A stretch of DNA of 64,000 bases from Blastomussa wellsi (taxonomy: Eukaryota > Cnidaria > Anthozoa > Scleractinia > Plerogyridae), in NCBI GenBank assembly GCA_947652115.1, contig OX393562.1, positions 28,863,289 through 28,927,288 on the forward strand. The letters run 5' to 3'. Every line of letters starts with the position of its first letter. Within the stretch, counting starts at the first letter, position 1. The notes under the pieces are model-generated. The model searched no databases, had not been told where the DNA came from, and saw only the letters and a list, made by a program, of their open reading frames with translations. Below, piece by piece: positions 28,323 through 60,383 of this stretch. The position numbers and the translations under genes were made by a program.

Positions 28323-28330
28323 TGTTATTC

Positions 28331-34220: not shown

Positions 34221-37200
34221 ATGAAGAAACTCTTTTCATTGCTGACGTTTGCCCTGATCTTCCACCTTGTAAAAGGTAACTGAAAGCATACTTTGCATTT
34301 GCATTTCCAGCTCTCATGAGTTATGATACACTGCTGTCCAGCAACTGTTGGTAACGTATCAGTCTATAACTGTTTACAAACTTCCATTGTGTCTGTTTTG
34401 TCTATAAGCCAGAGTGTGGTAGCTCTCGACCTCTCGTAATTAAGCTTGTAATTCTACTAGTTCTCTGTGTAGCAGAAGCTATTGTTGTTTGTTTCATTGC
34501 TCTCGCACCGAAAGCGAGGCGAGTCATTCATTTGAGAGCTTGTGAGAGCTGTTACCTGACGTTTTGCAGTATTCGACACTTTACATCAGTCTCGGTGTAA
34601 CTATCGTCCCATGTAACTAATGTTTAAGGTACTTCGGAAGCTGTTTCAGAACAGTACGATTGATTGTCATATACTGCAAATAACATACCGCCAATAGGGT
34701 GACTAAAGAGGTAGCATTTCTTCGCTTTACACTAAAACTCCCAGTGGAGGATCCAGGGGGGAGGGTCTAGGAGGTCCGGACCCTCCTTCTCTAACCAAAT
34801 CTTTTGTTTTACTACCTGTTTAACGCTAAAATTCTCGCATCAACAGGATCGCTTAATATCACTCACTTATTACTAGGGCTGATTACTCTATTAGATCATC
34901 AGCAGTGCTAAATTCTCTAGAGTGGTCTAACATAGAGCAGCACGGATTATTACTAGGGCTGATTACTCTATTAGATCATCAGCAGTGCTAAATTCTCTAG
35001 AGTGGGCTAACATAGAGCAGCACGGATTATTACTAGGGCTGATTACTCTGTTAGATCATCAGTAGTGCTAAATTCTCTAGAGTGCTCTAACATAGAGCAG
35101 CACGGATTATTACTAGGGCTGATTACTCTATTAGATCATCAGCAGTGCTAAATTCTCTAGAGTGGTCTAACATAGAGCAGCACGGATTATTACTAGGGCT
35201 GATTACTCTATTAGATCATCAGCAGTGCTAAATTCTCCAGAGTGGTCTAACTAAGAAGAAAGAGAGAAAAGGCACATGTTACTTATGATGTTTAAAGTAT
35301 TCAATAATAATTGTCCGACGTATCTTCAGGAGTATTTTCATAGAACCTTAGTAGTTCACAATTATAACTTGAGGGGTTCGAGATATGACTTCCAATTACC
35401 GCTACCTAAAATGAATTTTCTTAAACGTTCTTTCTCTTATCGAGATGCAAATGCTTGGAACCAACTGTCAAATCAAATACGTGAGATAGGGGATCTTGCA
35501 AGCTTTAAACGTGCGATATCCTAGGACACATTTTACATCGCTAGGGCCCATTTCTACATTGCTTCGTATTATTATATAGCAAATTATGATTGTTACTAAT
35601 TATTACTTAAATTTCCTTGATATTAAATAATATTTTAGTGCTAAGTTATACCAAGCTTATTGGTCCTTTAACATTTATATCTTGTAATTTTTGGAATTTT
35701 TAGCATTTATATCTTGTAATTCTTACACGGCATGTCTGAAAACCAGCTTGCTGAGCCATTTACCGTGTTTTAAGTTGATTGATTGATTGACTGAGCCAAA
35801 GTTTGGACCCCCCCCCCCCCCTATCAAAAATTCCTAGATCAGCCTTTGACTACTCTCATACAGTGACTTCCTGAGTTCACTCGATTACTTTGCTTTTTCC
35901 TAGGCCAGGCTAATTCTGTGGGAAACGTTTATTGTCACAGCAATCACACCGTTGATATCACTATTATCAACGTTGAAAATCTTGCAAGTTGGGACGAATC
36001 TCAATGGCGGCTAGAAGGGAAGCTCGAATGCGAGCCAACATTTTCCCTTGGCGATGGGACAGTAACCTACAGCTACCTCGTCTTACCTGACTGTGCTATG
36101 GCTGAGGAACAACTTCCCGAAAGCATAAAATACATTCTCAAAATCAACGCTCTAACCGCTGATCCAGGCGGTACAGGCCAGTTGCGCGTGTATGATCAGC
36201 TGTATTTTGTGTCGTGTGACTACGACAATCAAAACAGATCCACGGCAAGCTTTGTGCCGGTCACGAACCGCGGCGCCAACGATTCAAGTGAGTATTGATA
36301 CAACAGGGATTTATTCAGTCAAGAACCATTGTGAGTGTGCAGGGAGGGAGGGGGGGGGGGGGGAGTTGGGTAGTAGGGGTACAGGGTGTCACGCTAGTCA
36401 GTGTGATGTGATATTTGTTTTTCCGTCTATGCTAACAGACTATTATTTGATTTGTTTTCCCCCTAGGCAATGGAGTTTTTACCTTTTCGCTACAAGCTTT
36501 CTATTTCCCCAATCACACCGGTAATGTGCCTAACCCAGTTGCATTAAACCAAACTTTGTATTTCAAGGCTACAGTTGTGACTCAAAGTTCTGCATCCAAT
36601 CTTGACCTTTTCATCGAGCACTGTTGGTCATCAAAGAGCGCCAATGCTATGGTTGACGATGGTAACTTTGATTTAATAAAACACGGGTAAGAATTATTTA
36701 TAACACTACATCAATCAAAAAGGGAAACACAAAAATACGAGTCACTTAAACGCATTGAAAAGAAAAAAGAAAGCACTTTTTAGCCATCTTACCCTATCCA
36801 AAAACACCAACAGATTCCGCAGCCAGTGTATTCTAAACCTTTGCTTGGTATGACTGTGAGGCACTCAACACTGGAAGTAAATAAGAATAATTTAGGCAAA
36901 CAAACTACTTTTTGGGCGTATTATAATTCTCAACGCAATTATGGGTATTCCAGTGAATTATCGACTATTTAAAACGAATAACCTAATTAATTCTTTTTTC
37001 CTTGGTTCCTTTTTTTTATGACAACCTTATTGCAATTAGGTGTATGAATATGATACTTTGTTTGCCAGTAAATCATTAAATAATTCGTTTATCTCTTTTC
37101 ATACCAGCTGTGGTAATGACACTGTGAGTCAAGACGTGGGTAACACATTGTCCTATAGGTGCACCGATGATGATATAAAGGAAACCTTCTCGATCCGAAC

Positions 37201-38923
37201 GTACAGGTTCTTTGGGGCGGCGGAAGAAGATGCGGTTTACTTCCACTGTGATTTTAGAGTTTGCCTCCAGTCAAACGCGCCTACTGCTTGCGACTGTCCT
37301 TCTTCGCTGGAGTGTGACACTAACGCGAGGAAAAGACGTTCAGTTTATGCAGATGAATCCCAGCTGTATCATGTAACATCCGGTCCTTTCGTTTTTAAGA
37401 GGGACGAGAAGGAGGAGGGAGAAGTGAACGAAGAAAAGGGTATGTACGAAAGTATATTGGGTCATTCAAGAAACAATCAAACATGCAAAGACTTGCCCTT
37501 ATAAGGAATGAGTACACATGCACGTAATTGCCCAGTTTCATACCGTGAGGTACTGGGTCGAGTCCCGACATTCGCGATGCAAAAAACTGTAAACTTCCGA
37601 CGATATATACCGCTTGTTTGCTTGCGATGAGGACGCCTTTTCCTTCGCAATCCGCTTTATTCGCGTGGCGGCCATATTGGCCATAGACAATAGATTTTTG
37701 TACCCCGGGTCTCGAGTTGAAATGTTTAATTTGGGAACGAGTTTCCGCGTGGTAAAACAAAAGTTTTCAATCCCTAGGGACTCAACATGGCCGCCGTGAG
37801 ATTAAGACCTATGGCGAAAACCATGCTTCTTTTAATTTGTTCGCGAAAGTCCGCGGTCGACCCAGTACCTCACGGTATGAAACTAGGCAATGGGGTGTCG
37901 GTAGATGACGTCTTACATGGATTGACCATTCAGTGCCGATTCACCCACTACACTCCCGGAGCAGCCCACAACCTAAACGTACAGTGCAGAACAGCACCAT
38001 GTTCATGTTCATGACTTTTCATAGAGTTCAAGTTTACCTATCAGTTTAGAGCAGCGTGGCGGTTAAAAACGGAGACAAACCACTCCTAGTGCCCTTTCTA
38101 AACAACATTAACAACAGCAAACATACATACATACATACAAACTTTATTGAAGCATCGTAATTGAGTTTTTCAGCTACAATTTTGACAAAACAAATGCAAA
38201 TTGAAAAACTGAAAACAAATACAAATTGAGTACTACAATAGCAATAAATACATTAAATATAGAAATTCTATTTCCCATATTATAAAAAGTTTAAGGATAT
38301 AATAAATGAGAAGAGATATTTCATTTAACCTACTACAATATTATATTTACCTATTTAACAAATGAGCAAAATAGAAGACATATATAGCCAAATAGAAGAC
38401 AGATATTCAATTCAATTCAATTCAATGTTTATTCAAAGAGAAATAAGTGGTGAGGAGATTTATGATACCTTGGATTACTTGACAAGTAGGTTATTTGTTT
38501 TATTTTTGCATATTTTAATTTTTGAAAAAATGAAGAAACTTTTTTTAAAAGAAGATAAACTGGGAGAGAAGGTAACCGAAGATGGTAAAGCATTCCATAT
38601 TTTTGGCCCTTGGTAAAGTATGGTGAATCGCTTGATATTTGTTCGACAAGCGTGAGGCCGAAGTTGTGCTGAGGCTCTGGTATCATAATAATAAATTATA
38701 TTATTCTGGTATCATAATAATATATTATATATATATTAATTAAATGCTTCTTTCAGATGTACCTGACGAACGGGATGAGACCCAATCTGTCTCAATCACT
38801 TTGATCACCATTGGGGCGGTCAGCGGTGTTGCCGCCATATGCATTCTATGTGCGACAGTCTATCTTCTAGTACGCAGTCGCGTCAAGCAGCTGCAAAATG
38901 GTGCCCTGAATGTGGCCACTTAA
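34221..38923 (+). CDS. Zona pellucida (ZP) domain type I membrane protein
   Basis: Five exons join in frame: 34221-34275, 35904-36287, 36467-36686, 37108-37439 and 38757-38923, totalling 385 aa. Residues 1-18 are a signal peptide (MKKLFSLLTFALIFHLVKG). ZP-N spans about 28-140 with its cysteines at YCHSN, LECEP, LPDCAM and FVSCDY. ZP-C spans about 148-292 and contains LYFKATVV, LFIEHCWSS and VYFHCDFRVC. RKRR at 294-297 is the consensus furin site expected just after ZP-C. One membrane helix lies at about 343-368 and the cytoplasmic tail is short. Such proteins polymerise into extracellular matrices after furin cleavage. There are no EGF, CUB or other accessory modules, so this is a minimal ZP protein. 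The polyadenylation signal AATAAA is at 39053-39058. Confidence 0.86.
34862..35255 (+). repeat. 80-bp tandem satellite, five copies, in ZP intron 1
   Basis: The unit starts TTACTAGGGCTGATTACTC and includes AGCAGTGCTAAATTCTCTAG. The marker AGTGGTCTAA and its variants recur exactly every 80 bp at 34921, 35001, 35081, 35161 and 35241. Copies differ at only a few positions. The array runs straight into the LINE fragment at 35256. Confidence 0.9.
35256..35790 (+). mobile_element. 5'-truncated LINE: C-terminus of reverse transcriptase ORF, 3' UTR and (TTGA)n tail
   Basis: An open frame ending at 35524 reads through FKVFNNNCPTYLQEYF, YNLRGSRYDFQLPLPK and NAWNQLSNQIREI, the standard end of L2/CR1-like reverse transcriptases. 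A 3' UTR follows and the element ends in TTGATTGATTGATTGA at 35775-35790. The tandem 80-bp repeats upstream may be its amplified internal or 5' part. Inserted in ZP intron 1 in the sense direction. Confidence 0.8.
37526..37891. mobile_element. DNA transposon-like MITE in ZP intron 4
   Basis: Inverted ends of about 35 bp: the left has CCCAGTTTCATACCGTGAGG and the right mirrors it as CCTCACGGTATGAAACTAGG. A second nested inverted pair (GGCGGCCATATTGG against CAACATGGCCGCC) lies inside. No coding capacity. Short frames here are artefacts. Confidence 0.75.
38121..38300 (-). mobile_element. Retroposon 3' tail
   Basis: On the minus strand, TTCAATAAAGTTTGTATG runs into (TATG)n. It marks an antisense LINE-type 3' end within ZP intron 4. 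The 5' boundary is uncertain. Confidence 0.5.
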
Positions 38924-40368: not shown

Positions 40369-40986
40369 TCCGCTATAAGTAATTCACTCCAGCTAACAGA
40401 TTAGTGATATTATAACCAGAAAAGTCGAAGTCCATTTCCGTGACAGTAGGGAACACAGTAGGGGCAAGCCATTCATTCTTAATTTCTGCGAAGTTTTGTT
40501 GCTGTTGTTCATTTTATTCCATGAAACAGTGTTTTTGCCAATGGCATTTGCAGGAAAAGCACAAAATAACTCTTTTGTGATAAAGAACAATTTTTGACAT
40601 ATGGCGTCTTGTTATAATTATTATTTCGCTATCTTTTTGGGATTTTACTTAATGAAAATCACGGCAAGTCAATATTCACCTAAGTACAAACAATTTCCGC
40701 ATTTTGTATGAGATTTTTCTAATTTTTGTAGTGGGTCAGAAAATATTGGATCAGGATGGAACAGAATACATTGATGCCAGTATAACCACGATACCCGTCG
40801 AGCGTGGCATGGAGATCTTTTGTTTATTCCACTGAATATAACCTCCATGTAATTATGGCAAAACTTTTTGTTTTCCTCCCTTCGTGACAAATTATCGTAC
40901 TGTGTTGAACAAAAAGGAGAAACATCTGCATTTTCCTTGTTTCAAGTCGTTTAAGATACATTGCTTTATCCTTTTCTGGCAAGAGG

Positions 40987-43900
40987 ATGGCTGTTACACC
41001 ACAAAGACCCAGTATTCAAATTGTCCACGAAACGCCTGACGAGCTCGAAATCACAGATGTTAACACGAAACCAAAGGAAAGTTGCCAACCTGCGCCCGAA
41101 GCGCTGAGTTCGTTCCTTGAAGGGACAACCCTACACGGGATTCGGTTTGTGTTGACTGGGAACATTTTCAGAAGATTACTTTGGGCTTTGGCTCTCGTTA
41201 CTTGCTTTGGTTACTGCAGTTATCAAGTTTACAATTCGGTGGGTAATTTCTTCCTTCGACCATTCAACACGAAAATAACCAGAAAGACGGCAGCAAACGA
41301 GATAGAAAACCTCAGTTTTCCTGCCGTGACGATCTGTAATGTCAACTACATAAACAGGAGGAGGGTTGAATACGCGCTAAACGAGACAGAATTAACCAAA
41401 GAAGAAATCGAACTTAAGCTTGCCGTTTACACAGAACTAATGGCAGGATCAACACAGATCTTCAATGAAATTGCAAAGGAAAGCCATCCTGAGTTGTTCC
41501 GTATTGATGGTATCAATTATCTCCAATTGTTTGGTAATCAAATTGACGAGATGCTCCTTCCAAGTTCAATATTTGACTCTTGTGTCATTAATAACATGAC
41601 TTGTGGATCAGAGAATTTTACCAGTTTTTTTACCTCAACGCATAGCAAGTGCTTTACGTTTAATTCTGGGCACGAAGATCGTCCTATCATTTTAGCAACA
41701 GCTGCTGGTCACCTCAACGGCCTAAGGCTTTTGCTGAATGTGGAGAGAGGCAGTTACCTTGATACCATATCAAGACCCATAGTCGGTGTCAGAGTTCTCG
41801 TGCATGATCAACATATATTTCCTTTGATAGAACAGTTTGGTTTTGCTGTCCGTCCAGGGGTTCGCACTCTATGCTCGATAAGAAGGAAAAAGGTTTGCTT
41901 TAAGGAACTCATTACACTGCGAATTTCAGCCCGGTTATCCCGATTTCACAGACCGGACTGGAAATTTCATCCCGGACTGAAGGGCTGGCTCACATGTAAT
42001 CGCATTTAGATTTCGGCACGGGCTAGGCTGAAGAGCAGCCACGAAAAGGCCGGTTCCATGGAGCTGAAACTTCTGTCAACCAGGGCGAAAAGTCAACATG
42101 TAATCGCAGCAAAAATTGCCGCCCATCACGAAGCTGAAATTTCACCCCGGGCTAAAATTCACCCTTAGTCTAGCTACTTGTTTTTTGACATTACGATTTC
42201 GTGTAAGCTTAAATCAGTTGTGTTATTATAAATAATAAAGGTGTAATAAATACTGCTGATGGTAAGTTTTCAGCTCGGTGCCGGAATAAATTAAATGATA
42301 AAGATGAAATAACCAATTATGACAACACATGCGTGGGATAAAGAATGGATTTGAACCCATGAACTCTCAGATAGCAGATGGGCGCACTAACAAGCTGCGC
42401 TACGAGAACCCTTGTTGAGCTAAGGCCATTTACTTATATGGTACGCGTCCTGCATACTGCTGGGATCAGCAATGTCGAAAGCTTCATGGGGATATGAGTG
42501 TCATAAACCAGCTGAAAGATAGTAGATTTTCACCTGCTACCGTCCTGACCAGTTCCTGTACTATCTCCTGACGATATCGTAACCACGGCAGCGTTCTAAT
42601 CTGACTTGCAATTGCGAATGTCTCTCTGAATTTAATTTGCAATTAAGCCTTTTTCATATGTAATGTCCAAGTGATCCTTATAGTCACTTCATGTCGATGC
42701 GGACGCTCTTGTCGTTATGATGACGTCAGAAGCCCAAGTTCTGGGATGTAGAAGGGTCGTGAGTTCGATTCCCGTCGGGAACTCGAGCTCATGGCAAGAG
42801 AAGACTGCCGGATTGCATACTTCATAAAATTAAACAAATTTACTTTTCATTTTTTTACTAATGCTGGCCACCTTGTTAAAATAAGGAAATAGACAGTCCG
42901 GTATTGGGTCAAATCAAGATCAGAGATTTTTAAATTTAATTCGATTGCCTGATACTATTTTTAAAAAGCCTAACTGAAACACAACGACAATCCAAGGAGG
43001 AAGTAATGTGCCAAAAATCTTTGTCTCCACAGATAATCAATTTGCCAACGCCATACCCATCCAATTGTACTGACAGAACACTGCACATGCTACAAAGCAC
43101 CGATTACACATATTCAAAGCCAGCTTGTATCACGCAGTGTCTGAGTGAATTTGTTATCAAAAGATGTGGTTGTCATCCTGTAGAATATGAAGGTAAGGCG
43201 TTTCTTTTGAACAAATACACTTATTAAAGTTAATAGCGATGAATGGTTTAAAAGCGGATTAGAGCTTCACTCTGACTCCAGTACAGGAAAGCGTAACATG
43301 ATTGCAATGCGAGTGAATAAAGAACACCATTTGCGAAGACGCAAATGATGCGCCCTCTTGTATTTGTTTTTCCACAAGTTCTGCTGTATGCTGACGATAC
43401 AGTAATGTTGTTGCCGCTAGAACTTCTACTGAGCTAGAAGCATCTCTTAACACTGACATCAATTGAATTTCAAGGTGGATGCAAGAGTATGGGCTTTTGA
43501 AAAACTTGAGTAAGGCTGAATATGTGGTCTACGGCTCACACCATGCCAAAGTGTAAAGCGGGCAGGGCAGACTTAAGAAAAAGACGAGGCAAGTTTCGAG
43601 CTCCGAGGGCGCGAGCCGCTAGGGATGTGGGGGCATGCCCCCCCCAGAAAATGTTGAAATCTAGAAGCTCAGAAATGCTTTTTTAAGCATTTTCTGTGAC
43701 ATTTTTCTTGAGAAACTGAAAGTCAATCTTGGCCAAGGATAGAAGTTCACTTTTTTATTGCTGAGCGATACTGGTGCCAAGTTAATGAGCACAAGAGTAG
43801 CCAACGTTATGGATTTTATAGTGTAGATAATTAGGAGAAATCTTGGGTAACACTTTTTTGAAGTTAGTTCTTAGATGATATCAGGAGCCCATGAGAAGGA

Positions 43901-46900
43901 GCCTCCATCTCCCATACTGACCATCTGAGTCAACCCTGTCCCATATCTTTTTATTTTTAGATGGAAGCATTTCCCACGGTGGTTTTCGCGGTATGTATAA
44001 TAGCCAATCATGGGAGAGCTCACTGTTCTAAAAATAAAAAGATACGGGACAGGGTTGACTCAAGGGCAAAGTACGAATGGAGGCTCCTTCTCATGGGCTC
44101 CTGATGATATACATAATCACGCTCACTTATCAAATATCTGTTTCTCTTGCTTATGTTCTTAACTTTGAGAGAGCTTTGTCATAATATTGCCATCTCTTAT
44201 ACTTGTACGACTAAGAAGTCACTAACTTTCACGATTAAGGGTAGTAAACTTCTTCCTTAACAGTTAGAAAAGTGAAAGATAATTTTTACGCGTCGTTTAT
44301 TCTTTACTGGAAACCGGGGATAAGCTCCGGCCTGATGGGCCACTAGGCCCGACAGCAGACTTACCTTATTCTTTACTGAAAGCTAAGGCAATCCGTCTGT
44401 GGCCAGAGGCATCCCATCTCTTTAAAACGGAACTGCTTTCAGTTTCCGTTGGTTTATGAATGTACACTAAAGCAAGCCCGTTCAGCCTCGCATTAGCCAT
44501 GCTTTTTCGGGACCAGGTCTTAAGCCTTCTCATTGAGCCAACTGGAAGGGTCAACAGAAGCTGTAAAATGGTAGATATGTTTGGATAGAATTCTTCATTA
44601 TTGCAATTAATGGCTCACTGCATGTTTCAAACTTCTTGTAACATTCAACATTCAACTTTGGTTATTTGGTTACTTCTTGCAACATATGTACACCTCATCA
44701 AAATCAAAATAATAAATAATAATAAAAAAAAAAATCAAAACGAGGCAATTAGTGTAAATAGTTTCTTTGAATTTTATTAATAAAATTATTATTATTATCA
44801 TTATCATCATTATTATTATAAAAACTTTATTCAATTATTTACAATACTATTTACAATATTATTTACCTTCATCTTAAAACACAATACTAAAATTTTATAA
44901 TGAAATATTTTTTCAGAAAAATTATATCCTTTGTGCAAACAAATAAAAGAATTATTATTATCATTATATAATTTTTCAAAAATCTAGAGGAAACCAGCGA
45001 GACGGACTGATTCGAAACAAAGAAAATAAACTTACTTATCGTGTCCATTTTTGTTTCTCTATAGATACAAAGGTACCAATTTGCGCCGCGAACGACACTC
45101 TACTTTGCATGCTTCCCATATTTTGTAAGTGTTAAGAATTCAAGACGATTATATATAAACACCCATCTCAACTAAATCAAGAGATGTGGTAGAGGCAAGT
45201 GTGACATAAAATACTTACTATTTTCAAAAAATAAATATTCTTTTAGTGCGTTTAAATAATTACCGCCGTAATATGCAATGTCGCCAGGTTTTTAGACTTT
45301 TTGGTGTCAGTTGATCTCAGTTGGTGTCGCTGCATTTAATCTGCAGCTAGCTTTCGCACAGAACATGGAACACGAATGTATACACTGTATAAAGATACCT
45401 ATTCCCATACTCTTTACATACTGAGTCCACAACTGAGCGTGTGAAGAAAAAACATTTCTTAGCCAAGGTTGGACTGACCTGAAATCTGTACTTTGTTAAG
45501 GGCAGTCACCATGGCGGTAGTACTGTAATCTCGATCCCTAAATAAAGCGTAGACCGGAACAATCTTATTTTTCGATTAATTCATTTTGTATTTTATATAC
45601 AATTAGCACAGTTTGGTGCATCACAGGAAATGGTGAGTTGCGAAGAAAGCTGCCCAGAGCCGTGCGAACACACGGACTACGAGATGTCTTTGTCATATGC
45701 CGGCCTGCAAAGGAACGTTTTCATTAGAGAACTCGATTCATTTCTGAACAAAACTGAGGACATTTCTGTTTTGGCCATCTACGATGACTTCAGATACATG
45801 TCAGATCTTGAGAAGAAGGAATATATAGAGTAAGCGAAATAGATATTTGAAAAACTTGGAAGTTTTCAAGGAAATGGTGAATGGAGATTTTGAGTTCATA
45901 GCATTTACGTACAGATAAAATTAAAATCTGAACAAACAAAAATTCCTTGTTTTGTTTCCATAGTGATAACATGGTTTCGTTGGATATCTATTTTGAAGAT
46001 TTGAGCTATGATGTCATTGAACAAATTCCGGTGTTTGAAACATGGAATCTGTTTGGTGAGTCATGTCCAATGCTAAATTAAAACAGAATTGTTAGTCGTA
46101 CGCACAACAAATATCTTTAAAGGAGACCCTACGTCACGATATTTTGAGTTATTTCTTCGACAACCTAAATTACCTTAAAATTTATGAAACCTAAAAATAA
46201 TAGTTTGCTAAGGAAGAAAAACACCAAAGGAGTGATACTAAACCAAAAAGGAACAAGGATGGCTGAGGATGGAGAAGATTGAAACGGATTGGAAATGATC
46301 AATGATTTTGAAAAATTTAGGCTAAATTTTTCAAAGTACACGATGACGTAGCTCCTTTCTGATCTACCTTCTTCTTTGGTAAGAACTTCCGTTCTCTTGT
46401 GGTAAAGAGAATGGCACAAAAACATAATTCGAGTAAACGTAATGTTCTGATCAATGTCTTGGAAGGCAGAATGAAACATGGATCACTTTAGGAATACTAT
46501 GCAGATTGAACAGTATAGTATGTTGCAGTTTGCTAAACAACTAGCTAACTTACTTAGAGTTAACTTTGAAAAATCGGATAAACGAAAGAGCGAACTGAGG
46601 AACAGATGAACGAACTAACAAGTCAATAGTTAAAAGAATTGATGGCTGGATGGCCGGATGGCAAGAGAGATGGGTGAATAGTCAAATTAATGTTAATTTT
46701 AGAGCGTGAAATTCAAAGCTTGCTGTACGTGCCTAAATGGTTTACCCGCGTCAATAAACCTAACCTGATTAGTTTAAATTTATCGGATGATGGACCGTGA
46801 ACCAATAAGCTGCAGGGCCGATGAGGAGCCATTCGCGGTCCTCAGAGCGCCTGGTTTCAAAAGACAGTCTTTCTATTTGGTCCCGTATATTGATAATAAT

Positions 46901-47060
46901 GATGATATAATGAAGCACCCTTTTGTTTATTCTAGCAAGTCTGGGAGGATATTTTGGTTTGTTTCTTGGCATGAGTACCTTGACTGTTCTAGAATTTGCT
47001 GACTTTGCCTTCAGGAGACTTTGCAGTAAGGCATCATCCAGACGTAATGGCAAGCGCTAA
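40987..47060 (+). CDS. DEG/ENaC/ASIC-family sodium channel subunit
   Basis: Six exons join in frame: 40987-41892, 43033-43192, 45065-45124, 45607-45829, 45964-46055 and 46936-47060, giving 521 aa, a normal length for the family. The start ATG has a good context (A at -3, G at +4). The conserved His-Gly gating motif is H50-G51. TM1 is about 60-82, followed by FPAVTICN (111-118). The extracellular cysteine-rich domain includes YSKPACITQCL, CGCHP and CEESCPEPCE, all family hallmarks. TM2 is about 481-503 and contains the selectivity filter G492-M-S494 (G-x-S). Trimeric, amiloride-type cation channels of this family are gated by protons, force or peptides. Which applies here cannot be read from sequence. 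Introns host a fold-back element and tRNA-derived repeats. The donor of exon 1 (GTTTGC) is weak. AATAAA is at 47269-47274. Confidence 0.9.
41893..42175. repeat. Inverted, GC-rich repeat in DEG/ENaC intron 1
   Basis: Motifs such as CAGCCCGG, CCGGACTG, GGGCTGG, CATGTAATCGC and TTTCACCCCGGGCTAAAAT occur in both orientations. The style is like the GC-rich MITE family at 2765 (including the CATGTAATC end), but the sequence is different. The open frame of the first exon runs through this repeat and should be cut at 41892. Confidence 0.45.
42341..42413 (-). repeat. tRNA-derived repeat (minus strand)
   Basis: The reverse complement has GTTCTCGTAGCGCAG (A-box-like) and CATGGGTTCAAATCC (B box) at the right spacing. 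The anticodon stem does not pair. This is probably a SINE head rather than a working tRNA. Confidence 0.5.
42709..42785 (+). repeat. tRNA-derived repeat, 3' half
   Basis: A T arm with GAGTTCGATTCCCG and an acceptor-like end CGGGAACTCGAG can be read, but the D arm is unrecognisable. Located in DEG/ENaC intron 1. Confidence 0.4.
43882..44103. mobile_element. Fold-back MITE with 7-bp target duplication in DEG/ENaC intron 2
   Basis: The ends CAGGAGCCCATGAGAAGGAG and CTCCTTCTCATGGGCTCCTG are perfect inverted repeats over 20 bp. Pairing continues through GGGTTGACTC/GAGTCAACCC and the ATCTTTTTATTTTTAG arms. The direct repeat ATGATAT flanks it at 43875-43881 and 44104-44110. No coding capacity. Confidence 0.88.
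44765..44890 (-). mobile_element. Retroposon 3' tail with (ATT/ATG)n
   Basis: On the minus strand, TTGAATAAAGTTTTTATAAT leads into an (AAT)n/(GAT)n run. An antisense retroposon end in DEG/ENaC intron 2. Confidence 0.45.
46127..46480 (-). repeat. Interspersed repeat, family A (minus-strand copy)
   Basis: The reverse complement matches 4620-4870 over CTTCTCCATCCT, CCATCCTTGTTCCTTTTTG and CTTTGGTGTTTTTCTTCC. Found in DEG/ENaC intron 5. The long minus-strand frame across it belongs to the repeat and is not a gene. Confidence 0.6.
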
Positions 47061-49228: not shown

Positions 49229-49546
49229 ATTTCAGAAATGAGTTTACACATTTATAGTTGAATTCATCATCCATATATTGGTTAACACAATGAAGTCAAG
49301 GGTTAGTGAGATAGATCCGTTTGCATCTAAAGCAAAAATGGTCAGAAGCCTGGAATATAAAATAATGCTCGAATAACAATAAGGAACTTCGTCCATTATA
49401 CAGTAACTGTATATCCCTATACTGGAATATTGTTTCTCTGTTCATATTTTACGTTTTCTAGAGTTTTAAATAAACTTCCTTTTTTAATAAATAACTATTT
49501 CTTCTATTACTGACGACGCTCGGCTTTGTAAGGTAGTTTGACTGTC

Positions 49547-50134
49547 CTATGACAATTCCATGCCTTGAGCTTCATCTGCTGAGAGAACAGAAAGCGTCAA
49601 AGCGTACTGTGTTAACGAGAGATCGTCGAATGCGAGTCAGGTGAGGCGAGAAAGGGGCGAGCGAAGGGCTTTTAATTTCTTCTTAATGTTATTATTAACT
49701 AATGTAAACCGAAATGGCTTTAGTTGTCATGGTTTGTCTGTTTTATGAACTGGAACATAACGTAGAGCAGGTTTAATAATGTTTAGAAATGTATTATAAT
49801 TAATTAAGTTACGCTTATATACTGGCTGTATGTATGACGGAAATAAATGTTATAAAAGAAAAAACATAAACTACAACTCTGCTATATCTGTAAAACAATT
49901 GCAATTAAACTTCAGCAAACTATCGATCTTACCAGCTCGTTGATGATGATGACGAGTAATACTCTTTTTCATTAATTCCCAGAGTTCCCCCTTACTTTCT
50001 CCTCGAATGACGTCATCCTCTTGAAAACCTCTCCCCCAACGAATACCGGGAAGCTGCCCCTGAACATTTTGAAAGTACATTGACAGGAGAACGCAAGAAA
50101 TGACAAGCAGCAAAACTAACTTGTTCGAGGACAT
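49547..50134 (-). CDS. RW-amide-type neuropeptide precursor A (predicted product pQLPGIRW-amide)
   Basis: Two coding exons: 49933-50134 and 49547-49575 (or to 49578 with the neighbouring AG), giving 76 or 77 aa. An acceptor with a long pyrimidine tract ends at 50143, 8 bp before the ATG, so a 5' non-coding exon must lie upstream. I could not place it. Residues 1-26 are a strong signal peptide (MSSNKLVLLLVISCVLLSMY…NVQG). Q27 directly follows and would cyclise to pyroglutamate. Then come LPGIRW, G34 as amide donor and R35 as cleavage site. The rest (GFQEDDVIRGESKGELWELM, then MKKSITRHHHQR onward, …MELS) is a spacer with acidic and histidine-rich parts. Sea-anemone Antho-RWamides share the pQ…RW-amide form. 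Position, intron phase and layout match gene B. Single-Arg processing is less usual than KR. Confidence 0.75.
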
Positions 50135-50141
50135 GGTACCT

Positions 50142-51480
50142 TCTGAAGAAAGAATAAGAAAACACCTTAAATTAAAGCACATGCCGAACAGTTGTACTGT
50201 TTAATTAAAAATTTGACCTTTTGTTTTTTTAATTAAGGGCTCCCTACTCCCAAGAAATGAGGCGACTTAATGAATTCAGGGCTGTATTCTCTTGAATGGA
50301 AAACGAATACAAGTAGACACTTCTTTTCCTCGCTTGTGGTCTTATAGAAGCCAGGAATTACACCGACAATTTTAAACACATAAAATTATTTTCAAAAGAA
50401 AGGTTATTAGCATAGCTTAGAAATGGTTCAATATATTAAGAACAATAGTGTTGGGAATGATGTGGTTGTGCTAATTTCCGGGAACAGTTGAAAGCTAGCC
50501 GTTGAATCAAAGTGGTTTCTAATTTGAAATCATGTACGGAGTTTATGCGTCCAATGGTCCAGTAGCGTCCAAAAGTCCTTTGTCGATTGATTTTATTATG
50601 GCATATTTCACAAAACCATGGGAAAATCAAGAAAGTATCTTGAATTGGATTCAATGTAATACAAATGCAACTAGAGGCTAACAATGATAGTAGAAAACTT
50701 TGTTCCTCCTTGCCGCACATCAAAACAATAAACAGACAACTGAAAAATTTAACTCTTAATGCCACATCCTGTTGGTAACAAGGCCATGACAGTTTCTGGC
50801 TTCAACAAATAAAAATGCGAGTCCCGTTGCGCTCAGCTCTGAGAGAACTTCGATCAGGCACGATTCGAAAGTCTTCCACGATATCTTCTGTCATTTTGAT
50901 AAGTCTATCAAACTTGTCGATAATACAAATTGAAAACAAGAATACGAAAACAGCTCTTACTTCGCTCGCTTGGGAACGCTTGCTACGCAGGCTAAATTTC
51001 CATGGGCCAAACTGTAAATTTAGATGTGAAAGCACATAGTGTAAACCTTTCTTGGAAACTGTATTTGACTGGGAATTCGTATACCCTACGAGTTATGACC
51101 CTCGGAAACCCGGGGCTCGGAAATCAGTAAAATTCTGTATGGAAATCGAGTCGTCATAGTTGTATTTTTTGAAACGGTCAAAAATTGGACAAAACTATTT
51201 CACCTCGAGTAAAATATTCCTAGAATATAATTATCCAAAGGATAAATTAGAAACTGTGTAAACGTGAGACTAAGTTAATTTTACGACTTTCTGTGAGGGC
51301 GTATTAAAACTGCCATATATTTTGGGCATGTAGAAATTCATCGTTGTTATTAATTCAGTTTTCTGGCTGAATCTGGTCGCCCGTTTCCAAAATGTCTAGG
51401 TTTCGCACAATTTTAAACTCGCTGGAGCAATATTTTTTAAAACAGTTTACTACTGAAAAGGCTGTTTTTGGCAAAACAAA
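50142..51480. other. Upstream flank of RW-amide gene A
   Basis: No exon identified. Open frames on both strands around 50802-51039 overlap one another and contain repeat-like sequence. The 5' exon and promoter of gene A should be in or beyond this interval. Confidence 0.35.
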
Positions 51481-51687
51481 AGAGAATTGGAATTTTCGGA
51501 TGTGTCCAGTTGGAAGTGTTGGTTTTTGTGGAGGCAGGAAAAACCGGAGAACTCGGAGAAAAACCACCCTCGGAGCAAGGGTGACCACCAACAACAAACT
51601 CAACCAACATAGTACGCCGGGTCCGGGAATCGAACCCGGGCTACATTAGCGGAAAGTGAGCACTCTCCCCGGTGTGCCATCCCGCTC
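51480..51687 (-). mobile_element. tRNA-derived SINE
   Basis: On the minus strand the head has an A box-like TGGCACACCGGGGAGAG and a perfect T arm GGGTTCGATTCCCGG at 51610-51687. The body follows, with GGTGGTTTTTCTCCGAG and TCTCCGGTTTTTCC. Typical SINE2 layout, and the anticodon arm is not functional. Confidence 0.65.
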
Positions 51688-52276
51688 TAAATTTAATTCT
51701 TGGGTAGATGTGAACCTGTTTAGGCCCGTAGCAAGCATATGCTAGTATACCGAGAAACAAAAAGGCAAGAGAAAGAAGTCTTCAATTTTTTTAAGTTTAT
51801 CAATAAAAATTTTTCTCAATTTTCCTCATTCGAAACCATCATTGTTTCTTCTCAGTTTACAGTTGCCCCTGGTATTTTCCCAGCTGGTTAATAATTATTT
51901 CAAACCCGTTTCTTTCATTTGAAGACAATGTCACACATTTACTAAAGATGACTTCATGTTTAACTAGGCCCTTTAAAAGTGTCACTTTAAGGTCTCAAGA
52001 AGTACACTAAGACCTCTTGAAAAGGCCACTCTTAAGACTCCATAAAAGTGCCACTTGTAAGCCCCCTTAGATTACCACTTAAAAGTGCTACATGTAAAAT
52101 CCCTTAAAAGGGCCATTTAAAAGTCTACCTTAAAGCAGTTCCACCTATAAAACACTCAAAACTGCTAGCTGTAGACTCGTTATAAAAGTGCTACATGTAA
52201 AATCCCTTAAAAGGGCCATTTAAAAGTCTGCCTTAAAGCAGTTCCACCTATAAAACACTTAAAACTGCTGGCTGTA

Positions 52277-52827
52277 TAATTGAAACATTTGTTATTTGAA
52301 ACACACAATTCCAAAGTTTGAAAGCGCTACGATAAAACTTGTCGATTTTACAAGCGCCCAATTAAAGTTGTGCTTTTTCGCCTGAAAAATGGCAAATTGA
52401 ATCGCGCGGCCAAAATACCATGTGACCTCGAGTCTGACGTCAGTTTGTTTGCAAGCAGTGCAAGCAAATATGGCAGACGGTGAGAAAGTAAAGCGTAGAG
52501 GTGGACGATATTGCGTTGCTGGGGCTCCAAACAACCAAAGTTGCCAAAATACGTCTTACACCCCGAGTATTAGCATGCATCAGTTTCCATCCGATCTTTC
52601 GCGACTGGAGTCAAGCGAGCGTAAACAAATTCTTGCAAACAAACTGACGTCACACGCTTTTATCTCGCAATAAATTCGGACCCAGTCTCTTTGCCATTTT
52701 TAAAGGCAAAAAAGCGTAACTTTAAGCGCTTGTAAAATCGACAATTTTTATCGTAGCGCTTTCAAACTTTGGAATTGCTTGTTTCAAATAGTAAATTATG
52801 TAGAGAAAAATTTCGCTTCATCGGCAC
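52277..52827 (+). mobile_element. THAP-bearing DNA transposon fragment with long inverted ends
   Basis: AATTCCAAAGTTTGAAAGCG at 52307 and its reverse complement ending near 52775 start inverted arms of about 85 bp (52307-52392 and 52691-52775). The interior of about 300 bp has a short THAP-like coding exon. It sits inside the 103-bp array, which resumes on the right side, so it inserted after the array formed. THAP domains are typical of P-element-type transposases, but most of the transposase is missing. Confidence 0.6.
52470..52673 (+). CDS. THAP-like zinc-finger fragment inside the inserted element
   Basis: The 67-residue frame MADGEKVKRRGGRYC, followed by VAGAPNNQSCQNTSYTP, SISMHQFPSD and R/K-rich residues, resembles the first half of THAP domains (early cysteines, then HxFP). 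The second CxxH pair and any catalytic domain are absent. A longer reading from 52422 is possible. Probably a transposon remnant and not a host gene. Confidence 0.4.
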   Translation: MADGEKVKRRGGRYCVAGAPNNQSCQNTSYTPSISMHQFPSDLSRLESSERKQILANKLTSHAFISQ

Positions 52828-53212
52828 TTTAAAACTACACGTAAAATCCCCTAAAAGGGCCATTTAAAAGTCTGCCTTAAAGCAGTTCCACCTATAAAAC
52901 ACTTAAAACTGCAAGCTGTAAGACTCCTTAAAAGTGCTACATGTAAAATCCATTAAAAGGGCCACTTATTAAAACTACCAGCTGTAAGACTCCTTGAAAG
53001 CACCACTAGCAAATATTAGGTCTCCTTTATATAAAGGTCACCTAGCTCACTCTGTACGTCTCTAAACGTTCTCTTACTTGGGTCTAGCTGCATCAGTTTG
53101 CCAGAGAAAGTAAGGCTGGAAAAGTCTGGAAATTTGCGGTTGCTCAAATTCGATTTTATTGTGCTTAAAAGTGAAACTAAAGCTAAGCAAGCCATTCATT
53201 CATGTTCTGTAG

Positions 53213-54806
53213 GTATTCATCATTGGAAATAGGACGCCTTTGGTGGAAAACACAAAAAACAATATTCAAAGATCCAGAAGGTAAGATATCAGCAGCCTCG
53301 ATAAATAATCCTCAGACCCGCCGCTAATGGTTAAGTGTTTGAACCGTTAAATCTTCGCAAACTTACAGCATTATTACAAAAAGTAATAATTTCTCGAATG
53401 TCGTCCGTGTAAATAACACTGCTCGATATCAGAATCTCGAGGAAGCAAGGGGCTACAAACTGTCCAAAACACAGTTCAGGTCAAGAAATATATTTTTATT
53501 CGGTTTAAGGCTAGTTTCCATACGTTGGAAAAATCCCATTAGATCGGGGATTTCACTGTTTCCCGACCGACCCAGATTTTTCCGACAAATGAAAATTAGA
53601 AATCTTTAATCTCCCCGATCGCCTGGGATGGTTAGCGAGCGTTTCTATTTTGAAATTCCCTACGCGTCCCAGATTTCTGCGATGATCGGCGATCACACCC
53701 GACATATGAAAACTGAAATATCCACTGTCGGGGACGTTTCCGATGGTTTTAGCTTGTTACCAATCCTCTAGCCTCTTTTAATTGCTTGGCTCCAGTCCCA
53801 AATTCAGAATTTCGAGAAAATCTGCAACAAAACGTCTGGCGTTTCTCCGATATATCAACTAGACAAGCCTTTTGCATGCGTAATTTTGACAATTCGCCTG
53901 AAAACGTTGAATTTAAAAGCACCTAAAAGCCTTTCGTTTTTTATCTTCCTTTTTCTTAGTATAAAGCAAAAACACTGGAACCACATTTTAAAAGATTCAC
54001 GAGAGTTTCTGTCCACAGTAAAAGGAAAATTTACGCTCGGATATTCCTATTTTTTTTTCATGAGGTCAAAACAAACAATAGAAAAAAGTTTTCTACACTA
54101 GTATCCGTAAAGGTACCTTAAAATAGCAATCTTTTAAGCTCTTAAGCTTAAGTTTTCTCCAATGTATGTCTTGGGTCCTTCTTGACAATTTCACTCTCAA
54201 TTTTGGTTTGACTTTAGTTTAATGCCGGATCAATCAAATATGAATGACAGCCTTTAACAGTGAAACTGGAAGTGAGTGTCATTTTGGCGCGAGGAGGCCA
54301 TATACAACATGTTTTTCTACCCTAAATTTCAATGCACTGACATTAAGTTAATCTTACCTGACGACTGCTTGCTTTTAAGTTGTCTGTTACTTTGCCCTGT
54401 TGGCACCCCCGTGTTGTTGGGCAGTTGTTTCCTGTTCTTAAAACACTTGTCAAACCCTTGTCTCTTTCAAAGTCCTTTTATCTAAAACTGAAGCCTTCTG
54501 CATATAGCTTCATAATTATTACTGTACGGAGTCATTAATTTAATGACTTCTGTAATTCCGGTTCTGATTGAATTTTTCATTTGACCGGCCATTTTTTTTC
54601 TCTCTGTTATGATGTTTGGCGCGCTAAACCGGCGTTCAGTTTGTCGAAAGATCTCGGAGGTTTAGGTCGCAATCAATTTCGACATCACTTGTCAGCTGGC
54701 GTTTTTATATGTATATATTATTGCAAAGATAATCAAGACTTTCCGTTTTCTTTTTCAGGAAATATACAAACTTGGATCCATGTTAAGTCGGAAATTGCAA
54801 TGCGAT
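53213..54806 (+). other. Candidate pair of 3'-terminal exons of an unrecognised plus-strand gene
   Basis: 53213-53280 is preceded by CATGTTCTGTAG and followed by GTAAGAT. 54760-54806 is preceded by GTTTTCTTTTTCAG and ends in TAA. The phases agree and the joined reading is YSSLEIGRLWWKTQKTIFKD, then PEGNIQTWIHVKSEIAMR and stop. I found no earlier exon and recognise no family. The strong acceptor and phase match make it worth recording, but chance remains possible. Confidence 0.3.
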
Positions 54807-56770
54807 AAAACGGCCCACACCGCAGATAATTCGAGTGGTGAATAGTTAGTAGCAATCTTTACTCATGAAGTGGGCAAAGAAAGTTAATTCACATCGATAA
54901 GCATTTAAATTTAATTCATTGAATTTTTCCTTCCTTCGGCTCTTTGAAAATTTTAATTAATATCATAAGCAATGTGAATTCTTTAGAAGGTATCACCGAC
55001 ACTTTCCGAGAGAGGCCAAAAAAGTGGTCGATCAATAGTGATAAACATACGTTATTAATAATAATAAACTTTTAAATTGCGCGGAAGCAAGGTGTCCTCG
55101 TGAATTTGTTCTGTTGGTCAATGTTATTTTCGTCAATGCAATTCACTTCCATTTTCCATTTAAAAGTTCTAGCGATTTGTCAAATGTGTTTCAGAGCTGA
55201 TGCTTCAAGGATAAATCCCTTAATTACCTGCTACTAACCTCTGACTGACCACCATTTAGTTTCTCTTCCGCGTAAATTTCGCTTTATTAAAAAGACTTTA
55301 CTAAGACAATCGAAAAATCGAAGGGCGGACAGAAGCCTTGTTTCTATAATTAAAAAAACCTGCCTACGACTCAAGCATGTTTATACATTTTATAATCACG
55401 AGAGCTTACAATTTCGGACAAAAATGTTTTGCCTTTTTCCTGAAATGTGCTTCGTTATTTAGGTATCACAAATTGCACAAACTGTGTTTGATCGATGCGG
55501 TTTTAATGTTGATGCCAAAGTTGATTACATTTATTCGGTTTATTCTACCACCCCAAACAAATAGGCTCGATTTAGGAGCGCGGGCTCCGGTTCCCGAACA
55601 GCGGCTGGTCATCGAGCCTACAAACAAAGAAAGAGCAAAAAAGAGCGTTGGGTAACTTACAGAGACATAGAGCTCGCAGATGGTAAATATTTTCTGCTGT
55701 TTTCTGACAAAGGAGTGCATAATTGTTTATGGTACATTACAAACCTGTCGGAAAAACCCACACCGTCAAAGACAACAAGCGGGTGTTTCCGTTGCCAACT
55801 ACAACGCAAGAAAGAGATAAGTTTGAAATATATTTTCCAAACAAGCACTATGACAAGATATTAACTGTTCCGAACAGAATCAACTAGACTGGCAGTCTAG
55901 TTGATTCTGAAGAAATCGTTGCGTTCAATTTTCCGTTAACCATTCAGTGTGAAAATGTAACAATTTACTACAGCAAGCACACAGTCATTCACCCAATTCG
56001 TTTGTACTTATTCTCCTTTTTTCTGTCACCTTATTGGCATCCATTTTTGGAATTTCTGGTGGAAAATCACCTCATGATTTTGTCGATTATTATAAAAATC
56101 CTCTTAGGGAAGTAAAAATACGGCTCATGTTCGGTCTAAAACGGACAATAACATCGATCATCATCGTTTTGCTTTTGTCCTATGCATTATGAGGTAAGCT
56201 GCGCCGTTTTACATGGATCATAAACCACAAATACACTGCAAATAGCGCTTGAAGCGAGGGCAAATATCTCACGATATGTACTGCCCTTAGTATTTACTCA
56301 GCGTGAGTAAGGGAAATACTGCAAGCAGGATGCACGAACAGCGCCGATAAGCATCGCCTCCCTCTTGACACAACCAAAACGTTCGTGGTCTGATGAATAG
56401 TCGACATAGCAATCAGTCGAAGCAGTTTGTTCACGTACCAATCCCATCCTCGCAATGGCCGAAGTCTCAGCTGCTCAGATCATCGAGTCGATCAGTGATC
56501 GTATAGCAAAACGGACCACATATGAAATGCACAACAAGGCGGCCCTTTGGTACTACGGGCACAATGCAGGCACATCTCAGTGAAACAACTTAGATTAAAA
56601 TTGCTGCCTAGGTAGCAACGATAATAAACCCGGTAAAAGGAAACATTTGACAATAAGAATCCTATAAGAAATTTTAGTGTGTAGCATCGCTGAACATTTT
56701 AACTCCTCATGCATTTGTTTTTCGTTTCGCCAAAATGCTACAAGCCAGGGAGGGGGTACTTAACTTAGTT
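54807..56770. other. Intergenic, no gene seen
   Basis: It contains the perfect palindrome at 55875-55909 and an inverted pair AGGCTCGAT…ATCGAGCCT at about 55562-55619 around a GC-rich core. Otherwise AT-rich with no supported exon. Open frames at 55377-55720 overlap on both strands. Confidence 0.4.
55875..55909. repeat. Perfect 17-bp-arm palindrome
   Basis: CAGAATCAACTAGACTG, one base, then CAGTCTAGTTGATTCTG. Both arms are exact reverse complements with a single-base spacer. It is too short for a transposon end pair. Confidence 0.85.
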
Positions 56771-56778
56771 TAGGTGTA

Positions 56779-56970
56779 GGGGTGCCCCTGGGGATTTGAA
56801 ACCCTGACCCTGTTTAGTACAAAAATAGCGTTAAACACCTACCATGTTTAAGGACAAAAGGAAAACGTTTTCTTGTGCTCTAGCGGTAATATTTAGCCCT
56901 GAAAATGATTGATCTAATAACTGGTTAAATAAATAATGATCAACGTTTCTGATTTCGGATTGCTTAAAAG
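56779..56970. repeat. Interspersed repeat family B, copy 2
   Basis: Matches 11981-12180 in the same orientation over about 190 bp, with roughly 15-20 percent differences by eye. Confidence 0.7.
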
Positions 56971-57339
56971 TTGACGAAAGTCTTGATTCATACGAAAATG
57001 TGTTTTAACTGCATCTTCATTTTCATGCAAAATAAGCTCATTCCCACATGAATAGTTTCGCACTTAGTCTCGTTTTGAAACAGAGGGAAAAGGGAACTCG
57101 GAAATGGCCTATTAACCCTGTTCAGGAATGAGAGGCCAAAAACCAACGAAAAAAAAAATGGACAAGAACGAGAAATATTCTGTCTTCCCACCATTGGTTC
57201 CTAGGCGGATTCCCAGCACGTGAAGAATATTCTCGTCCCAGACTCCGAGAAAACATTTTATGAAGGAGAGAGGAACAGGTTTTTAAGGATACGTTCCTTT
57301 AAAATGCTCTACTAAGACAGCAAACTAATTTAACTCAGG

Positions 57340-57345
57340 TTTATT
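57340..57345 (-). terminator. Polyadenylation signal of RW-amide gene B
   Basis: TTTATT on the plus strand is AATAAA on the minus strand, about 127 bp after the gene B stop codon. Confidence 0.55.
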
Positions 57346-57471
57346 AGTTCAATATGCAATTTATTTCGATTTTGATCATGTTACACTCAAGCACAAGATT
57401 TACGTAAATAGTTTACAGTGATTGTATTTAGCTTTTTTCTGACGATAAAGATGGTACAATTCACTGATGCT

Positions 57472-59085
57472 TTAGCTATGGTCATATTCTGGAAGATCAC
57501 TGCGCCTATCTTGACCTGTGGAATAAAGGTGAGGAATTTAAAAACGTGAGTATTGATCTGTATAATTATTACAAAAAAATACATCATCAGCTCTTGAGGA
57601 TTTAATAGCTTTGACAGTACAAACTACGGTTTGAAAAAATGGAACACAAATTTCTAAAATGTCAAAACCTTTATATGTATTAGGTATACCATAAACTATT
57701 CCACATTTTCAGTTCTCATAGAATAGGTTAGAAACAAATGAATAATTGTTGTAAAAAAACTTCAAAAACTTTTAGAGGTGAGAGGTGGTGACCACATCAT
57801 GCTCGTACAGGGAAAGCGGTCACAATTTTATGTTTTCAGATTAGGCATACGGACCGGGGAGCAGGGGCTGTAGCTCCCCCCCCCCTCAAATTTTGGGCAA
57901 ATCAGAGTTTTTGGGCAGCACGAGAAAATTTGGGCAATAAGTAGATCTTTTCAAGACCATTTTGGTGTGAAAAACGTTTTCCAAACTTGGCCAAATTTGA
58001 ACCAAGAAGTAACATCACAGACACATAACTGCTCTCCTGTGACGAATGGTTCAAGATAAGAGGTCGACCATTTATTTAAAATAATGGGATAGTTCAAATA
58101 TATACCTGCATATTATCAAAAAGACTATTTCCCACACCAGCAGAAAGCCCCACTGTCGTCCAATTTTCTCTATTTATTTCAAATTCACTTATCCTTGTCC
58201 CTTCATCTTTTCTAAAAGATTATTAAAAATCATAGCAGGTTTGTAAGACAGCTCCCTTAGCGCCAACGCCGGAACTCGACATAAATATGCATCAGAAAAT
58301 TATTTCAAAGCGTTACCGACAATCGTTGTCTGCGGCTGTCGCCGCTCAAACGATTGCTGCCGTAATAATAAAAATTATAATATACTCAATTGACCACTCC
58401 CAAAATGAGGCCCTCCAGGGCCAATTTCGTGTGATCATAACTAACGAAAAATAAAGAAAATAAAACTTAGGTAAAAGTAACAAAAATATCTGGGACTGTT
58501 CGCGCGTGACACAGTGTGATGTTCGCGCATATTTTCAGTGTTTAAAGTAACACTGTCACGAGTATAGCTTTAACAATTCATCATCCCGTGACACCAATGA
58601 CAACAATGGAAACCTGCGAACAGTGGTCAAGTTTCGATAAAATGACAATGCCAGTGTACTGAAGCTAAATATGGATATGGACAGTGATACCATCGGGAAC
58701 TTTAGATCTCAACTTGAAAAAGTCGGCTGACTTTTTCAAGTTCTGTCCTTGTGATTTTGAGAAATTGATGAAAACTATTTGCGGTCACCCTCTCCCTTCA
58801 ATATTCTGCTTGATATTTATTTATTTATGTTTAAGGAGGAATGTCCGTGAAAGTGTCCCTTTAACAGGTGACCACGAGTACTGTAGGCTTACTGTAGAAT
58901 TCCCGCTTGTTATCCTGTTGTTGTCTCCGCCAGTCTCGAGCTTCTTCTGGAGCATATTCCTCGGAAAGCCTGTTGTTTCTTTTGCCCCAACGCAGGGCAT
59001 CCTGTTGACCCACAGCAGGTTGGATAGAGAGCAGAAGTATTGCGCATGTCACAAGTGCGAAAGTGAGCTGTGTTTTGGAAACCAT
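57472..59085 (-). CDS. RW-amide-type neuropeptide precursor B (predicted product pQQDALRW-amide)
   Basis: Two coding exons, 58893-59085 and 57472-57515, join through a phase-1 intron to give 78 aa. An AG directly precedes the ATG, so the 5' UTR is spliced. Residues 1-26 are a signal peptide (MVSKTQLTFALVTCAILLLS..PAVG). Q27 starts the predicted peptide QQDALRW, followed by G34 (amide donor) and the dibasic K35-R36. After that come an acidic, Arg-rich spacer with further basic sites (RDWRR, DNKREF) and the C-terminus SQDRRSDLPEYDHS. LRW-amide is the exact C-terminal triplet of the sea-anemone Antho-RWamides. The neuropeptide, if real, would act on secretion from neurons. A spliced, TATA-bearing upstream exon is proposed near 60384-60460. 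The terminal exon rests on splice signals and phase only. Confidence 0.78.
57820..58892. other. Intron of RW-amide gene B with low-level repeats
   Basis: Between the two coding exons (57516-58892) there is a poly-C run near 57880 and phrases TTTTGGGCAA shared with 48.2-48.5 kb. No exon of another gene is recognised. Confidence 0.4.
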
Positions 59086-59312
59086 CTGCCAGGTTAAAAA
59101 CATAACAATAATCAAGCGATGAAAATGTTAATTAAATTTCAACATACCTGGTAAATGAGAGTAAGGACAAGCAAAAAGGACGTTTATCAGGCTTGCGTCG
59201 CAGTTAGCCTCGATTATTTTGTCAAAGACCTATTCATTCTCACTGTGAAACGCACCACAGTTATGCGAACCAGCGGTAGAACCCGAAACACGTGATCATA
59301 TTTGGCCAACCC

Positions 59313-59388
59313 GGCCACAGTCGCTCAGTTGGTAGAGTATCGCACCGGTATTTCGCGGAGGTCACGGGTTCGAATCCAGTCGAAACCC
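59313..59388 (+). repeat. tRNA-derived repeat upstream of RW-amide gene B
   Basis: GTCGCTCAGTTGGTAGAG is a clear A box and CACGGGTTCGAATCC a clear B box, 75 bp overall. The acceptor stem ends do not pair well and the anticodon arm is irregular, so a SINE head is more likely than a tRNA gene. It lies in the proposed 5' UTR intron of gene B. Confidence 0.5.
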
Positions 59389-60383
59389 TGATTTTTACAG
59401 GCTTCTTCTTTCCAATTGCTTCAATTGGAAATTCACTGCGATGACCATTCTTCACTTTCAGACAAAATTTTGGAAGAAATTAAAACCTACCTATCCTATT
59501 TTCATTATTTTCTGTTGGATATGGACTTTTGTCGGAAATTGTAAACACTGTCTTAGCTCATTCTTTGATGATTAACTACTGATGAAGGAATCATCGACTG
59601 ATTAATAAACAAAGCCTGTCTTCCTCGGCTGTTGATCGAAAGCTCTCTTGTCGACAATTCATGCAAATAATTTTTTATTGCACTTGTTGGAGGCGATTTG
59701 GTATGAATATTTATATAAAGTTTTAGTAAAACTTTCGTCATAAAACAAATTAACAATTAATGCAAAAATAATGGCACTCCCGGCATCACATACTTTTAAA
59801 AGGAGCAGAACAGAGAAGCAAAGAAAACTTCTTTGATTTTCCAAGAGATTAGCAACAACAAACTATTTTGATACCTATAGCTAACCTGACTAAAATAAAA
59901 ACATTTTAACTAGATAGCAAGTGATCTTTATATTTTAGCCAGTTGAAATTCATCGCTGGGTAACTCATAAATGGTCAGTTGTTACGCTTGCTTTCCCGGC
60001 TTTGTCAAATTTTCAAAAGTGCAAAATTATGTTAACGTTTATACGCCATAGCCATTATGAACTATTGTTCAGTTATGTTTAAATTCGTAAAAGTGTAAAT
60101 GAACGCGCTCCTCTTTAAATTTGTAAAAGACTCGAAACGAAAACTTTTACATGGAAAAGTAATCACTAGCTGCTATCGTTTACAAAAAAACTAAAACGAA
60201 GTCATGCATAGTTTTAAGGCCTTCAGTAGCTGGCGTGGAAAGTATGGGAACATTAATATTGTGGTTTTCCAATGCCCTCAAAAAAATCCTCATGCTAAAA
60301 TCGAATTTTATCAATAAAACACGTTTAAGTATTTTTGCCTAAATGCTTAGCCTCTAGAAAATGCGTAATGCAAACAAACTTAC

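Follow-up and report, generated by a model that had tools for sequence, protein, structure and literature searches.

We conclude that two genes on the minus strand of the analysed DNA, a stretch of 64,000 nucleotides (the window), are preprohormone genes of the anthozoan Antho-RWamide (LRWamide) family, which would act through the peptide processing and GPCR route proposed below. We give this reading a probability of roughly 0.94. The two are referred to as gene A, a QLPGIRW precursor, and gene B, a QQDALRW precursor, and have the following features.

50134-49547, minus: gene A, whole coding span, 76-residue protein
49933..50134, minus: gene A, first coding exon with leader (residues 1-26), QLPGIRW-G-R and spacer; 27 type-A relatives
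50036..50056, minus: gene A, predicted mature peptide pQLPGIRW-amide, codons 27-33; identical peptide published (PMC7523074)
49547..49575, minus: gene A, last exon of the 76-residue form; matched by Oculina model P0044
49488 and 49176, minus: gene A, candidate ATTAAA signals (motif only)
start 49228, minus: gene A, candidate polyadenylation signal AATAAA (motif only)
59085-57472, minus: gene B, whole coding span, 78-residue protein
58893..59085, minus: gene B, first coding exon with leader (residues 1-26), QQDALRW-GKR and spacer; 17 type-B relatives
58987..59007, minus: gene B, predicted mature peptide pQQDALRW-amide, codons 27-33
57472..57515, minus: gene B, last exon; matched by Oculina model P0001
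57345..57365, minus: gene B, candidate polyadenylation signals AATAAA, two starts (motif only)

Gene structure and shared layout

Re-derivation of the reading frames bears out the initial annotation, which had described two minus-strand genes of 76-78 amino acids. Each opens with a hydrophobic, signal-like leader of 26 residues ending in G (the signal peptides were judged from sequence pattern), followed by Gln27 and by Arg-Trp-Gly at residues 32-34. Residue 35 is basic, R in gene A (RWGR, where the Gly is followed by one Arg only, GR-G) and K in gene B (RWGKR). The acceptor described at or within 8 bp of the ATG is also present: an acceptor-like sequence ends 8 bases before the ATG of gene A and 0 bases before that of gene B, and a 5′ UTR intron is plausible in both. 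The intron after the peptide is GT..AG and phase 1 in both genes, as had been proposed. The last exon, given earlier as about 10-14 residues, is indeed very short, but the exact counts, split codon included, are 9 residues in gene A (76-residue form) and 14 in gene B.

Two overlapping acceptors (CAGCAG) stand at the last exon of gene A, one starting it at 49575 (76 residues) and the other at 49578 (77 residues). In pyrimidine content, the acceptor at 49578 (0.80) is level with that at 49326 for best, and the one at 49575 reaches 0.75. The 76-residue form equals the Oculina patagonica model P0044, which is annotated without a leader, in length over the C-terminal part (...HHHELAVEAQNMELS vs ...HHHQRADEAQGMELS), and the model P0001 of the same species matches the last exon of gene B (SQERRKDLPEYDYN vs SQDRRSDLPEYDHS). 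The C-termini of these two models match the predicted last exons of genes A and B, respectively, and support the splicing proposed at the outset.

Each gene contains the motif RWG[RK] once, and the six frames of the 64 kb contain it exactly twice. It had a mean count of 0.38 in 200 first-order Markov simulations, and two were reached in 10 of the 200, so that by itself it is unremarkable. When a suitably placed Met and Gln were also required, the mean was 0.015 and two were never reached, and with a hydrophobic leader required too there were 0 in 200, under rules that were set after the genes had been seen. It is unlikely that the layout arose by chance.

Relatives, conservation and family membership

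Protein searches with gene B, gene A and a 14-row alignment of both types gave 9, 16 and 44 matches, respectively. The alignment search (44 matches among 6038 candidates at E up to 1) takes in all the earlier matches, and its relatives divide into 27 of type A (GIRWGR) and 17 of type B (LRWGK). RWG plus Lys/Arg is kept in all 44, as the initial annotation expected of homologues, in a search that favours such sequences; relatives lacking the RWG block could be missed because candidates were collected by shared five-residue words. Many of the relatives resemble, by eye, an unspliced exon 1 in which the donor is read through into the intron. Short GLRWamide precursors are known from the literature and were not reached by this profile search, so that the case for family membership is made from the layout and from an identical published peptide.

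Among sequences with a full leader, the type A peptides are QLPGIRW, plus one QGKLPGIRW, and the type B peptides are QQDALRW, QKDALRW, QMDALRW, QEQALRW, QQDILRW and one (Q)QKNGLRW (P0036). In both types, the part of the relatives that is best conserved is the mature peptide, from Q to W. For type A, mean pairwise identity is 0.97 in the peptide, 0.73 in the leader and 0.56 in the following 30 residues (17 distinct sequences from 28 including gene A, the others being without a full leader or identical over the compared parts); for type B, the corresponding values are 0.85, 0.66 and 0.54 (18 distinct out of 18, gene B included).

Type A precursors carry a second block after the peptide, about GKLWxLMKKR (49960-50026, minus), in which Q38, L51 and W52 are invariant among the 11 sequences compared, although P0027 and P0040 deviate from this pattern. 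It is perhaps a second, non-amidated peptide, and because it is kept, the tail of type A may have a role of its own. The block could also be taken to favour a reading in which both products are small secreted proteins with RWG inside a longer active peptide, and not cut and amidated neuropeptides. We consider this very improbable: both window proteins lack Cys beyond the leader, the conservation peak spans Q to W, and the identical peptide is already annotated as an Antho-RWamide (PMC7523074). The GR-G site of gene A is weaker than GKR, which counts against the neuropeptide precursor reading that we prefer, and it would suit one gene of the pair being a dying copy that gives no peptide. With the peptide and its amidation-cleavage site kept across relatives of both types, a dying copy is extremely improbable.

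Antho-RWamides are reported as a single peptide directly after the signal sequence (PMC7523074). Genes A and B share this arrangement, as in both a Gly and a basic cleavage site come after RW, the peptide is present in a single copy, and Q27 comes straight after the leader (by pattern). The published peptides include pQLPGIRWamide from Discosoma sp. and Ricordea yuma, the same as the peptide of gene A, as well as pQLLGIRWamide from Acropora millepora and Montipora capitata, pQGLPGIRWamide from Pocillopora damicornis and pQQKGVLRWamide from Corynactis australis (PMC7523074), the last of which may, from its sequence, be a type-B relative. The fit of the layout, the conservation of the peptide and the published identity of the gene A peptide uphold the call of RW-amide-type neuropeptide precursors. 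The single peptide copy per gene, which the initial annotation had singled out, is correct as a count but is no special feature, since that layout was already published (PMC7523074). We do not retain its proposal of a "related but longer type" because the single-copy layout and N-terminally longer peptides, including the identical pQLPGIRWamide, are already within the published Antho-RWamide family (PMC7523074).

Family 10 of Koch and Grimmelikhuijzen 2020 (PMC7523074) resembles the present pair in having one peptide after the signal, mostly pQ, an RWamide end and often several genes per species. It differs in that neither DALRW nor QQDALRW, the gene B peptide with its acidic residue, appears in the main text of that paper, although they may be listed in its supplements or tables. 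A full-text literature search for the two peptides brought up no other paper that is, by its title, on neuropeptides. The words "intron", "exon" and "cluster" have 0 occurrences in the same main text, which does not take up linkage or exon layout. Nematostella LRWamides 1-3 (PMC11087051), whose receptors are known in Nematostella, likewise come from single-copy precursors and end in LRWamide, but differ from the peptides of genes A and B in their N-terminal parts, and the receptor tests found there do not include QLPGIRW or QQDALRW. The placozoan pQPPRWamide precursors (PMC9545775) share the pQ start and RWamide end; they hold many copies each (15 in Hoilungia hongkongensis) as opposed to one in genes A and B.

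Paralogy and linkage

The initial annotation held that the pair was born by tandem duplication. Paralogy is the favoured reading, on the layout and on the neighbouring genes in Oculina, but a recent event is not. Genes A and B show 10 identities over 35 aligned residues, mostly in the leader and RWG, and in a blastn comparison of the flanking DNA (49.0-52.2 vs 57.0-60.8 kb) the best hit, 31 bases at E 0.01, is not convincing; we have therefore rejected a recent tandem duplication. The same observations, together with an hhalign probability of 32% (E 0.00048) between the type A and type B profiles, could be read as convergence of two unrelated genes on one layout. We regard this as unlikely. 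The genes lie on the same strand, 7.3 kb apart (gene A start to gene B stop), and have the key residues at the same positions, introns of the same phase and a tiny last exon; moreover, each type's profile finds its own gene strongly in the window and ranks the other gene second (E 0.015 and 0.0011). In six frames of the window, neither profile found anything else below E 0.75 that could be a third paralogue.

The two types also adjoin in another species. Two of the 44 relatives are named, and both are from Oculina patagonica, which suggests a coral-like animal as the source of the window. The type A member is P0044 (ACROYT_G007425) and the type B member is P0001 (ACROYT_G007426). Their locus tags are consecutive, the contigs for both are listed at 46,518,285, and the RWamide genes are thus neighbours there too. 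The same linkage is hinted at in a third genome by P0020 (type A) and P0033 (type B), for each of which the longest contig is given as 908579 bases. From what genes A and B share in strand, placement of residues, phase of the intron and shortness of the last exon, and from the Oculina neighbours, we infer that they are probably old tandem duplicates. If tandem, the duplication would be old because the relatives split into A and B types and because the literature has A-like peptides from corallimorpharians as well as from Acropora millepora and Montipora capitata. Among the papers listed by a literature search, we found no report of linked or tandem RWamide genes at the level of titles and abstract openings.

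Proposed peptide action and the surrounding window

We suggest that the leader of both precursors would be cleaved off in the ER to free the Gln, which would cyclise to pyroglutamate. A convertase would cut after GR (gene A) or GKR (gene B), and the Gly would be converted to a C-terminal amide, giving pQLPGIRWamide (computed [M+H]+ 851.489) and pQQDALRWamide (computed [M+H]+ 898.453). Neurons would then release both peptides to act on GPCRs, with an effect on the target that is possibly neuromuscular or on gland cells. The analysis itself established the reading frames, a splice-site layout backed by the Oculina models, the conservation and the Oculina neighbours; the steps above are proposed by analogy with published relatives. 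In Nematostella, four GPCRs (R19, R213, R204 and R193) respond to the three LRWamides, with EC50 values down to 6.6E-11, and LC-MS/MS supports two Nematostella LRWamide1 precursors via non-amidated flanking peptides (PMC11087051). In a sea anemone, sphincter muscle preparations contracted in response to nanomolar Antho-RWamide-1 or -2 (PMC7523074).

A DEG/ENaC channel gene is located at 40909-47060 on the plus strand, convergent (tail to tail) with gene A and ending about 2.5 kb from its stop. The first part has a Pfam ASC match (E 5.6e-44), and near the end, with a stop at ~47.06 kb, is a pore-like GGYFGLFLGMS segment recognised by eye, which would belong to the same gene. Among solved chains, the first part matches ASIC2 and ASIC1 best (E 1.2e-27), against 3.2e-14 for the best FMRFamide-gated channel. 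One could imagine the locus as a ligand-channel cassette in which one RWamide of the pair gates this channel open in addition to the action on GPCRs. We give that very little credence, and the link is unsupported: the match is ASIC-like rather than FMRFamide-gated, and 27 Nematostella neuropeptides, which may or may not include RWamides, opened none of the tested NeNaCs (PMC9822975).

The window holds several other features. Upstream of gene B, the stretch 59290-59440 has ~72% identity over 81 bases to the tRNA-Ser copies and received no tRNA call in tRNA searches of the window; it is perhaps a tRNA-derived SINE. Three tRNA-Ser (AGA) genes lie in tandem at 17144-17801 (plus), spaced by 292 bases, and a large satellite-like region at 18139-22198 has several frames open on both strands (CTISNVCTIFTV / SVPSLLSVPSLM type translations). 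A histone 3′ UTR stem-loop match (35 bits against a threshold of 34) is found at 2482-2527 (plus), at the end of an ORF that has no Pfam match. At 12183-14589 (minus) and 37040-37504 (plus) there are ORFs that carry pieces of the VWA_4 domain and one ORF that carries a piece of the zona pellucida domain. The ORF at 27779-28324 (minus) has a GIY-YIG domain and is presumably a fragment of a Penelope-like retroelement.

The pair leaves the picture of cnidarian peptide signalling unchanged. The single-copy layout, the longer peptides and the exact peptide of gene A were known before, and the novelty is modest: the type-B peptide, and a linkage that Oculina also shows. What a known coral neuropeptide family gains is the possibly unlisted pQQDALRWamide with its variants QKDALRW, QMDALRW, QEQALRW and QQDILRW, exon structures backed by a second species in which two RWamide genes also adjoin, and masses and genes that are ready for peptidomics and receptor tests.
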